A stretch of DNA of 56,710 nucleotides from Candidatus Saccharimonadales bacterium (lineage in GTDB: Bacteria > Patescibacteriota > Saccharimonadia > Saccharimonadales > Saccharimonadaceae), in the NCBI GenBank assembly GCA_039928925.1, contig JBDSSF010000001.1:331837-388546 (forward strand), read 5' to 3'. Position numbers and translations under genes: made by a program. Positions 21,810 through 25,028 of this stretch are shown piece after piece; the stretch's first letter is position 1; every line of letters starts with the position of its first letter. The notes beneath the pieces were generated by a model. That model worked only from the letters and a program-made list of their open reading frames with translations. It made no database searches and had not been told where the DNA came from.

Positions 21810-22214
21810 ATGCATAGACACGGATATAAAGGGCGTAAATTCAGTCGCGAACGCGACCAGCGCCGCGCACTCCTAAAAGGTCTCGCGACTAGCCTCGTCG
21901 AGCATGGCAAAATTGAAACAACTTTGCCAAAAGCCAAGGAACTTGTGCGTTTTATCGAGAAAATAATTACCAAAGCTAAAAAAGGTGATCTTCATAACCG
22001 CCGCCAAGTGATTGCAGCATTGTCTACTCAGGCAGCAGCATTCAAACTAGTGGACGAGATCGCTCCTCAGCTCAAGGGTCGTACTAGCGGACATGTCCGT
22101 GTAGAACGTACTCGTTTGCGAGTTGGCGATGGTGCACAGTTGGCAACTATCGGCTTTGTCGATGAGCTAACATCTACACCAGTCGCTGAAAAGAAAGAGG
22201 AGGTGAAAGCATAA
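21810..22214 (+). CDS. rplQ: 50S ribosomal protein L17
   Basis: 134 residues, beginning MHRHGYKGRKFSRERDQRRALL and containing HGKIETTLPKAKELR-type segment. Starts two bases after rpoA and overlaps rplM by one. Confidence 0.96.
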   Translation: MHRHGYKGRKFSRERDQRRALLKGLATSLVEHGKIETTLPKAKELVRFIEKIITKAKKGDLHNRRQVIAALSTQAAAFKLVDEIAPQLKGRTSGHVRVERTRLRVGDGAQLATIGFVDELTSTPVAEKKEEVKA

Positions 22215-22660
22215 TGACTGACATCAAATCAAAAACCTACTCACAAAAACCATCAGAGGTAACTCGTCGCTGGATCCTTATCGATGCAGCCGAAGCACCA
22301 CTTGGTCGAGTAGCAACTCAAATTGCTAAATACCTCATCGGTAAATACAAACCTACCTATACTGCTCATATTGATGCAGGTGACTATGTCGTCGTCATCA
22401 ATGCAGCACAGGCTGTAGTTACTGGTGCAAAGGAAACGGACAAGAAGTACTATCGTCACAGTGGATTCCCTGGTGGAATTAGTGATGAATCAGTTGCTGA
22501 AGTTCGTGTAAAATATCCAGAACGATTAATCGTTGCATCTGTCAAAGGTATGTTACCCCGTAACAAACTACTTGCTGAACGACTAAAACGTCTTCGTGTT
22601 TTTCCAGGTAGTGAACATACTCACACCGCACAAACTCCAGAGAAAGTAGAGATTAAATAA
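22214..22660 (+). CDS. rplM: 50S ribosomal protein L13
   Basis: 148 residues, with W-x-x-IDA-EAPLGRVAT, GDYVVVINA, KKYYRHSGFPGG and GMLPRNKL. Confidence 0.97.
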   Translation: MTDIKSKTYSQKPSEVTRRWILIDAAEAPLGRVATQIAKYLIGKYKPTYTAHIDAGDYVVVINAAQAVVTGAKETDKKYYRHSGFPGGISDESVAEVRVKYPERLIVASVKGMLPRNKLLAERLKRLRVFPGSEHTHTAQTPEKVEIK

Positions 22661-22661
22661 T

Positions 22662-23060
22662 ATGCCTGAAGGTAAATATTTATATGGCCTTGGTCGACGT
22701 AAATCCGCAACAGCTCGTGCACGTTTGTACGCTGGTAAAGGTAACATCACCATAAATGACAAGACAGCTAGTGCCTACTTGTCCGAAAACAAGACACTTC
22801 TTGCTGAAGTCACTGATCCACTTGCCCTTGTTGGTAAACAAAAAGATTTTGATGTTACTATCAAAGTATCTGGTGGTGGTCTTTCAGGTCAGGTTGATGC
22901 GATTAAACTTGCTATCGCTAAAGCTATCACGGTTCAATTCGCAGATCTTCGTACAACGCTTAAAAAAGCTGATCTACTAAGTCGCGATCCTCGTGAAAAA
23001 GAACGTAAGAAATATGGTCTTCGTTCTGCTCGTAAACGTGAACAATACTCAAAACGTTAA
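22662..23060 (+). CDS. rpsI: 30S ribosomal protein S9
   Basis: 132 residues, with YGLGRRKSATARARLY, KVSGGGLSGQVDAIKLAIAKA and the tRNA-contacting tail GLRSARKREQYSKR. Last gene of the operon. Confidence 0.98.
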   Translation: MPEGKYLYGLGRRKSATARARLYAGKGNITINDKTASAYLSENKTLLAEVTDPLALVGKQKDFDVTIKVSGGGLSGQVDAIKLAIAKAITVQFADLRTTLKKADLLSRDPREKERKKYGLRSARKREQYSKR

Positions 23061-23084
23061 GTTTTGGCCACATTCACGCAATCT

Positions 23085-23113
23085 CTCCTCGTTTTACGAG
23101 GAGTTTTTGTTTG
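23085..23113 (+). terminator. Terminator of the infA-rpsI operon
   Basis: CTCCTCGT pairs with ACGAGGAG around TTT and runs into TTTTTGTTT, a textbook intrinsic terminator. Confidence 0.9.
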
Positions 23114-23138
23114 TAACAGTAGTGGTGTGTGATAATAT
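23111..23138 (+). promoter_or_regulatory. Possible promoter of the structured-RNA region
   Basis: TTGTAA at 23111 and TAATAT at 23133 (16-base spacer), or GATAAT at 23131, with a TGTG before it. It lies just after the rpsI terminator and before the first large hairpin. Confidence 0.4.
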
Positions 23139-23144
23139 AAATAA

Positions 23145-23825
23145 CAAGCAAGTTTGCAGTTTTATTACTCCTTGCGTTCATTTACAGCCTAGAAGTAATT
23201 CCTGCCGAGCTACGAGTATTTATACATTAAGTACTGCTAGCTCGGCAGGAAACATAAGTACTGCACACAACGGCGCGATGGCGCACACCTGAGAGGGCGA
23301 GCGTGCGATTGACGCACATCCACTGATCATCCGGATGATAAGTCCGTTACAGTGGCAAGCACAGTTTATCGCCGTGACAATGGTCTCGCTCGAGCCCATC
23401 GGAACCACTGTCACTTGGCGCTGAATCACAGCATAGAATTTCGCTGAAGCTTTCCTGAGCCCCCAACTCGAAGCTGGCAATCAGGAAATTTAGCGAAAGA
23501 GCGATGTAGGTGGATTAGACACCCGCCGTCCCGCGCGAGGGGCAGATTCCCTCGGAGGTCCGAAGCTTCATCCGTATTCAACTCCGTCATAGTGGCTTCA
23601 GACACTACTATGGCAATCATCCTGCTGCACATGTAGGCGCAGGGCTGATACTGATCATGCCAAGTCCGAGCAGTCAAATGCTCGCATACTGGGTGGTTAT
23701 CGTTGTCTGTGGACGAGCACTAGCGGATCGTCCCCGCACATAGTACTCATCGTTCATACCCAAATGGACGAGCGACCACATAGTGGTGAGCGTGGATACA
23801 CTCCGCGCTCACCACTATACGTTCT
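23145..23825 (+). ncRNA. Candidate large structured RNA, new family
   Basis: No believable protein is encoded here, yet the segment is richer in G+C than its surroundings and holds many stems. By eye: 23199-23212/23238-23251 (14 bp perfect); 23374-23384/23404-23414 (GTGACA.TGGT with ACCA.TGTCAC, one mismatch), competing with 23349-23355/23405-23411; 23439-23445/23492-23498 enclosing 23451-23458/23481-23488; 23536-23541/23549-23554; 23590-23594/23603-23607; 23621-23625/23639-23643; 23667-23672/23679-23684; 23711-23716/23728-23733; and 23780-23792/23806-23818 (13 bp perfect). It lies between an intrinsic terminator and trpS with a possible promoter upstream. I looked for RNase P, tmRNA and SRP signatures and did not find them. 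Strand is inferred from the promoter. Confidence 0.5.
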
Positions 23826-23996
23826 ATACTTCTAGGCTGCTATCAAACATTATTCTTAGATCACGTGCTCGTGATCTATTTATTTATATAGATACAAAAC
23901 ATTTCCAATAACACTAGAACTAATCTCTCGAGAATCATTATTATCCATGCCGCAAAGCCAGCAAAGAAACAACTATTAGGCTATAATAGAGGGAGT
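23826..23996. other. A+T-rich spacer before trpS
   Basis: No frame of interest. The TATAAT at about 23984 lies just before the trpS ribosome site GAGGGA, giving a very short leader. Confidence 0.4.
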
Positions 23997-25028
23997 ATGA
24001 CAAAACCTGTAATCTTGACCGGCATCCGTGCTAACAACGACCTTACGATCGGTAATTATTTTGGTGCAATTTTACCAATCATTGATATGGCAAAAAAACA
24101 TTCTGATGGCTATCAGATAAATATGTTTATTCCCGATCTCCATAGTTTTACAACACCAATCAACCATAGTGAGCTATACGACCAAATTATTCATAATGCA
24201 CGGCTATTCGTAGCTGCTGGTTTACCACTCGATAATGACAATATTCACCTTTACCGACAAAGTTACATATCAGCGCACAGTGAGTTAACGTGGATTCTTG
24301 ATTGCTTTACTGGTTTTGGTGAAATGAGCCGCATGACTCAGTTTAAAGATAAGACAAGTTCTTTAGGAAATGACAGGACAACAGTAGGGCTTTTTAACTA
24401 TCCCGTCCTTATGGCAGCAGACATTCTTCTTTACAACGCACTGTATGTTCCTGTTGGCGAAGATCAGTCACAGCATATTGAATTTTCTCGTGACATTGCA
24501 GAACGAGTTAATAATAAGTTCGGTGATATCTTTACTGTTCCTGCACCAGTTGTTGCTCAACACGAATTTTTCGGTAAAGACCAAGGACTTCGCATTAAGG
24601 ATCTTATCGATCCAACTAAGAAGATGAGTAAGTCTGATGATAGTGGCAAGGGAGTTATATTTCTTGGTGATGATCCGGCTATTGCAGCTAATAAGATTAT
24701 GTCTGCAACAACTGACAATATTGCAGAGATTCACTACGATAAAGCTAACCAGCCAGGTATTAGCAATCTTATTGATATCTTGACGCTTCTTCGCGGTGGA
24801 GACTTACAGCAAACGATCGGTGAGTTTGAAGGTCAAACACGCTATGGAGACTTCAAGCAAATCGTGGCTGATGAGACTGAACGATTTCTAAGAGACTTTC
24901 AAACACAACTAAAATCTATCGACGATGATGCTGTAATATCAAAGCTAGAGCAATCAGAAGCACGAATGAGAATCATCGCAGATGAAACTCTTCTTCGCGC
25001 GCAGAAGGCTGTTGGACTGAGAAAATAA
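23997..25028 (+). CDS. trpS: Tryptophan-tRNA ligase
   Basis: Charges tRNA-Trp. 343 residues, class I synthetase: opening TGIRANNDLTIGNYFGAI with the HIGH-type TIGN at 17-20, and KMSKS at 209-213. The helical C-terminal domain is complete. The -10 is about 7 bases before the GAGGGA site, so the mRNA leader is minimal. First gene of a run to the TPR protein. The matching tRNA-Trp gene is at 44.1 kb. Confidence 0.96.
   Translation: MTKPVILTGIRANNDLTIGNYFGAILPIIDMAKKHSDGYQINMFIPDLHSFTTPINHSELYDQIIHNARLFVAAGLPLDNDNIHLYRQSYISAHSELTWILDCFTGFGEMSRMTQFKDKTSSLGNDRTTVGLFNYPVLMAADILLYNALYVPVGEDQSQHIEFSRDIAERVNNKFGDIFTVPAPVVAQHEFFGKDQGLRIKDLIDPTKKMSKSDDSGKGVIFLGDDPAIAANKIMSATTDNIAEIHYDKANQPGISNLIDILTLLRGGDLQQTIGEFEGQTRYGDFKQIVADETERFLRDFQTQLKSIDDDAVISKLEQSEARMRIIADETLLRAQKAVGLRK

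Follow-up and report, generated by a model that had tools for sequence, protein, structure and literature searches.

A candidate gene for a large structured non-coding RNA between rpsI and trpS in a Saccharibacteria genome

In the window, a 56,710-nucleotide stretch of a Candidatus Saccharimonadales genome, rpsI ends at 23060 and trpS starts at 23997, with 936 bases between them. The interval opens with the intrinsic terminator of rpsI (23085-23103, + strand; an 8-bp hairpin followed by TTTTT) and closes with a TATAAT -10 element (23982-23987, + strand) placed 15 nt before the trpS start codon. In the slot between this terminator and the trpS promoter, which holds other cargo in the examined relatives, lies the segment here termed E1. 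The neighbourhood is chromosomal, of ribosomal-protein genes and trpS, and the nearest tRNA gene is >4 kb away; E1 itself has a G+C content of 0.52-0.55, compared with 0.36-0.41 in the flanks and 0.42 in the genome. The source genome (985 kb in five contigs, 98.6% complete) also contains the lysM-TM7 (RF03005) and LOOT (RF03000) RNAs, which fits Saccharibacteria, a cultivable group of episymbionts belonging to a parasitic lineage. Both are structured RNAs present in the genome that carries E1, but they are small, their models having 138 and 121 positions, their sequences are conserved and Rfam detects them; they are unrelated to E1.

The 655-nt segment is enclosed in its entirety by P1, a perfect 13-bp inverted repeat (23185-23197/23827-23839; CAGCCTAGAAGTA/TACTTCTAGGCTG) with a pair probability of 0.99, of which about 0.006 would be expected by chance in ~900 nt by our own estimate. 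Because P1 encloses the whole, the picture is of one molecule instead of many hairpins. Upstream of it are a candidate extended -10 element (TG-T-GATAAT, TGTGATAAT, 23128-23136) and a weak -35-like TTGTAA (23111-23116), from which RNA synthesis would start at about 23143-23145, followed by a 5' hairpin (23148-23175; pair probability 0.98) with a GCAAG/CTTGC stem and ATTACTC on the 3' side of its loop. Inside P1, the hairpin P2 (23199-23251; 14 + 8 bp, from inverted-repeat search and pair probabilities) is followed by the 5' strands of P3 and P4 (23261-23282), two predicted long-range helices (P3, 23261-23272/23701-23712, probability 0.95-0.98; P4, 23273-23282/23525-23536, probability 0.70-0.84) that carry the two hairpin groups of the fold. 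These are a multibranch core at 23288-23523 (hairpins 23303-23317, 23320-23355, 23364-23426, 23431-23507 and 23509-23523) and a second group at 23537-23699 (23537-23553, 23554-23585, 23586-23614, 23616-23649 and 23652-23699). Two further hairpins (23715-23748 and 23750-23771) and a 17-bp hairpin (23780-23818, probability 0.99) lie between P3 and the closing strand of P1. All these elements are on the + strand, as is the terminator-like hairpin TAGATCACG-TGCT-CGTGATCTA (23857-23878), which is followed by TTTATTTATA up to 23890 and is the likely 3' end. The core also contains a 14-nt palindrome, ATCATCCGGATGAT (23326-23339; ~0.04 expected by our own estimate), only part of which falls in a loop of the predicted fold. 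With a candidate promoter element at one end and a terminator-like hairpin at the other, E1 is likely a stand-alone RNA gene of ~750 nt.

An earlier sequence-only reading had described a large, hairpin-dense, gene-free segment here, and this description holds: the stems that it named are present and the fold is far beyond chance. Its 14-bp stem (23199-23212/23238-23251) is perfect and is extended by a further 8 bp; in its nest of 8 bp within 7 bp, the inner stem (23451-23458/23481-23488) stands as given, while the outer one (23439-23448/23489-23498) has 10 bp, and its 13-bp stem at 23780/23806 exists but has 17 bp with one G-U pair (23780-23796/23802-23818). The end that it proposed, 23825, falls short and misses the 3' strand of P1. 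The promoter that it thought possible has no strict consensus match and is weak, what remains being the extended -10 element; the raised G+C content that it remarked on is borne out by the values above.

The folding energy of 23180-23850 is -281 kcal/mol and that of its shuffles averages -209, giving z = -9.9 in one set of 20 shuffles and -12.1 in another 20, compared with a mean z of -0.55 (sd 1.84) for 60 random 671-nt windows of the source genome. One of the 60, however, the window at C4:47376, reached z = -9.1 and was set aside as a G+C-rich lipoprotein gene, so that z alone is not decisive for RNA; many other non-coding or intergenic segments of this genome have z of -5 to -9. Structure definition discriminates better than folding energy: ensemble diversity is 74 for the + strand and 105 for the - strand of E1, compared with 153 ± 35 in shuffles, and most helices, long-range ones included, have pair probabilities above 0.8, many of them 0.95-0.99. 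Unpaired bases on the + strand are A-rich (38%) and G-poor, a bias of the same direction as in the RNase P RNA of the source genome, and together with the ensemble diversity this favours the + strand. The segment is non-coding, as the sequence-only reading held in finding no credible frame. Its longest ORFs (86 and 83 aa) are both on the minus strand, are matched in length in one third of shuffles, and have non-coding scores against the hexamers of the source genome, a measure in which foreign codon usage could mask a coding signal; no Pfam or PHROGs match was found for E1 frames, and the + strand contains no ORF of at least 10 codons behind a Shine-Dalgarno-like sequence.

E1 is single-copy in its genome by blastn. 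Searches with blastn covered the source genome, its genus, 198 and 394 genomes of the family, 393 of the order and 145 of the phylum, and together with covariance searches gave no convincing sequence homologue in about 700 related genomes. Single-sequence covariance models of two E1 domains likewise found no homologue in 198 genomes, searches of phages, plasmids and viral contigs found none, and a search of GTDB contigs with the stem pattern returned nothing convincing. Several matches were inspected and none is convincing: that in G433 apparently lies inside a coding gene; that in G065 (GATGTAGGTGGATT) is within a 93-aa ORF whose protein resembles nothing in the window; that in G575 (CATTTACAGCCTAGAAGTA) lacks the 3' partner arm, with ~0.1 such matches expected; a Clostridia match to the stem pattern is a hairpin unrelated to E1; and viral matches to the leader pattern described below are in coding-like sequence and lack the closing stem. 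The rpsI-trpS synteny is maintained across the family, with intervals of 68 bp to 4.7 kb and diverse cargo, the commonest ORF among the relatives being a hydrolase-like family of ~277 aa (23 of 68). An E1 homologue is absent from 40 syntenic intervals of relatives, which hold other cargo. The earlier suggestion of a new structured RNA is partly supported: the structure, the lack of coding capacity and the lack of an Rfam match stand well, and limited comparative support comes from elements at another locus, described below. A structured segment in the slot of G023 (L101) was considered as a counterpart and rejected, being a leader-peptide/terminator region with a poorly determined fold. In intervals L090 and L101, short ORFs that resemble leader peptides share a GLFRV motif close to their end (MVTRTSHANYWFTGSTSCGLFRVLK and MNKQTLVNITWLTDSLSDGLFRVF, respectively) and are followed by terminators, a possible amino-acid attenuator.

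A second element, E2, was found by ranking the non-coding segments of the source genome on folding and reading the top ones. E2 (C1:96763-97240; L124:16763-17240) lies between obgE and an exonuclease gene and has the closing stem ATAGACGAGAAGTA/TACTTCTCGTCTAT. The inner part of this stem, AGAAGTA/TACTTCT, is identical in E1 and E2, while the outer part has different letters (CAGCCT/AGGCTG in E1, ATAGACG/CGTCTAT in E2) and pairs perfectly in each. The leader ATTACTCC..CATT..AGAAGTA is common to both in an equivalent position. The stem of the 5' hairpin also differs in letters and keeps its pairing (GCAAG/CTTGC in E1, GTTTTAG/CTAAGAC in E2), and the ATTACTC of this hairpin recurs in E2; thus two helices differ by paired changes in this comparison of two members. 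Each element has a TGTnATAAT-type -10 sequence (TGTTATAAT at the matching place in E2), a long hairpin just inside either end and, behind the closing stem, a terminator. Within the source genome, ATTACTCCT within 45 nt of AGAAGTA occurs only at E1 and E2 (0.02 expected), as does AGAAGTA..TACTTCT with at least 6 further outer pairs. The 5' alignment of the two scores 37, where 5000 shuffles reach 33 at most; on the 3' side, 110 shuffles do as well or better, and flank-only similarity is weaker, ranking 4th of 224 AGAAGTA sites; these statistics are modest and the link is built on short motifs picked after the fact, so that kinship of E1 and E2 is likely, not certain. The shared traits (leader, closing stem, end hairpins and terminator) occur together in E1 and E2 only, and since the type is defined from these two members, their agreement with it is descriptive.

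A third element, E3 (G058, C1:371752-372160), belongs to another genus and occupies the locus of E2: between obgE and the exonuclease gene of G058 lie genes for pilin-like proteins and then E3, immediately upstream of the exonuclease gene. Behind a canonical TTGACA-N17-TATAAT promoter come a 5' hairpin and a closing stem that encloses a core and terminal long hairpins, and a strong terminator follows. E3 has a folding z of -13.1 and no credible ORF, its one frame being an implausible one of 24 codons in the last hairpin. E3 thus shows the layout of E1 and E2, not their sequence motifs: it has no blastn match to either, the AGAAGTA/TACTTCT closing stem is absent, with similar letters forming its 5' hairpin instead, and on inspection the sole motif common to E3 and E2 is CACCACAGC, nine letters that open the first hairpin. 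The closing-stem pattern was not found in 800 kb of G058 or in about 280 kb of G008. These features support a picture of fast-evolving structured RNA genes, with E3 a putative member of the family of E1 and E2.

Taken as a whole, we consider it probable, with moderate confidence, that 23145-23890 is a stand-alone gene on the + strand whose product is a structured non-coding RNA of large size (about 750 nt); that the RNA is of a new kind is likely, given the thermodynamics, the location and the existence of two to three related elements. Two rivals are live. The perfect inverted arms at the ends of E1, its G+C content above that of the genome, the diverse cargo of the slot in 40 relatives and the lack of a homologue in close relatives are all compatible with a hairpin-rich piece of foreign DNA or the relic of a mobile element, of which the 13-bp arms would be the terminal inverted repeats and the slot an insertion hotspot. 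E1 is nevertheless single-copy and without a transposase or integrase ORF, no target-site duplication was seen at its arms on inspection, and the structure inside the arms is determined to a degree well beyond the needs of transposition; a MITE or transposon would be recognised by multiple copies with conserved terminal inverted repeats and target duplications. Moreover, E2 keeps ATTACTCC and CATT outside the arms while its outer arm differs, the reverse of a transposon end, and such conserved letters outside and inside a stem with a varying outer half, a pattern that fits an RNA, make a terminal repeat the poorer reading, so that we regard a mobile origin as unlikely. The other rival, in which E1 is the structured mRNA of a very small peptide and its fold serves stability or regulation, draws on E2, where a possible 29-codon Arg/Gly-repeat ORF (MSCIQRGGRIGRGGRIGRGGRVGRGGSEG) stands behind the Shine-Dalgarno sequence AGGAAGGAAGC, and on the G+C-rich small-gene cassettes that are common in the source genome. 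This ORF keeps the reading in play for E2, but no such frame exists in E1, whose frames score as non-coding (with the reservation about foreign codon usage), and E3 offers only its implausible frame; for E1 we judge a peptide mRNA to be quite improbable.

The size and ornate fold of E1 recall giant RNAs, and ARAGORN found no tmRNA in the source genome (loci L120-L171), where it may be diverged, missed, split at a boundary or truly absent; E1 could in principle be a diverged housekeeping RNA (RNase P, tmRNA, SRP or 6S) or a member of a giant family (GOLLD, ROOL, OLE or HEARO). An Rfam cmscan of 22000-25000 (E up to 10, permissive filters) nevertheless returned only chance microRNA and snoRNA matches: the models of GOLLD, ROOL, OLE and HEARO gave none in E1, nor did those of tmRNA, SRP and 6S RNA (with ARAGORN also negative for tmRNA). 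The intact RNase P RNA at C3:318838-319172 excludes RNase P as a reading of E1, in agreement with the earlier failure to see RNase P, tmRNA or SRP signatures, and a known family is thus very doubtful. A cis-regulatory leader of trpS (riboswitch, T-box or attenuator) would suit the position of E1 directly upstream of trpS on the same strand, but a terminator-like hairpin separates the two, no T-box or other Rfam leader matches, and E1 is much bigger than such leaders. In addition, 34 of 41 rpsI-trpS intervals (the source and 33 intervals of relatives, L070-L107) carry a TATAAT 12-18 nt upstream of the trpS start codon, which suggests that trpS has its own promoter and a leaderless or nearly leaderless mRNA, conserved in the family. 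Given such an adjoining promoter, E1 would not be the 5' UTR of trpS, and we give the leader reading hardly any credence.

If E1 is an RNA gene, it would be transcribed from about 23145 to about 23880, P1 would unite the ends and the terminal hairpins would cap the junction, giving a compact, nuclease-resistant particle. Such an RNA might act in trans as a structural scaffold or complex, not as a template or leader, possibly in the manner of OLE, ROOL and GOLLD, an analogy of kind, their models having been tried on E1 without a match. These three assemble into complexes made of RNA only, OLE and GOLLD doing so with symmetric kissing loops (PMC12286853). ROOL (Rumen-Originating, Ornate, Large) is, like E1, a non-coding RNA of several hundred nucleotides with many stems, no known protein partner and a proposed action through its own large fold, but it occurs mostly in phages and prophages near tRNA islands (PMC12286853). 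E1, which lacks an Rfam match, has neither this ROOL/GOLLD-type location, given its ribosomal-protein/trpS neighbourhood, nor a match in phage or viral contigs. GOLLD, in which one part is conserved and another varies between members (PMC12286853), resembles E1 in large size and in the conserved ends and variable interior of E1 and E2; it differs in its phage linkage and in keeping its 3' region, whereas E1 and E2 keep leader and closing stem. OLE, another large structured bacterial RNA, forms dimers through palindromic kissing loops (PMC12286853), to which the 14-nt palindrome of E1 may be compared, although this is only partly in a predicted loop. By analogy, self-association of E1 is possible, the palindrome being only partly used in the fold.

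On this reading, E1 would be a large structured bacterial RNA of a new and fast-evolving kind, whose interior would change fast while ends and overall layout are retained. More tentatively, and at somewhat less than even chances, E1, E2 and E3 may be members of one new Saccharibacteria class of large, stand-alone structural RNAs, with leader, closing stem and layout kept and the interior turned over. Only a handful of bacterial RNA classes above 500 nt with elaborate folds are known, several of them RNA-only cages or dimers (PMC12286853). If true, a class this large in a reduced genome of <1 Mb would earn its place only by being useful, and since almost none of its interior would persist from one species to the next, the usual screens for homology and covariation would miss it; screens for sequence conservation would thus overlook fast-evolving giant RNAs. 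E1 offers exact predicted ends, a promoter candidate and testable stems.

Further observations concern other parts of the source genome. The segment L153:9810-10617 (C4:109810-110617) is ORF-free and hairpin-dense, with z of about -5 to -6, and its minus strand carries, at 110141, a canonical promoter (TTGACA-N17-TATAAT) and, near 109890, a terminator-like hairpin; it has no Rfam match and no homologue in the family, and is a candidate for a further orphan RNA. A group I intron is present on the minus strand at L147:998-1274 (C3 ~121 kb; Rfam 82 bits). G+C-rich cassettes with a single small gene occur at C1:174229, C1:329005, C3:245728 and C4:47400-49400, and in relatives at L085 and L104. They contain lipoproteins and small membrane proteins and have hairpin or repeated ends (for example GTCCTG..CAGGAC in L085 and L104), features that suggest a cassette system, integron-like or other, in an A+T-rich genome.
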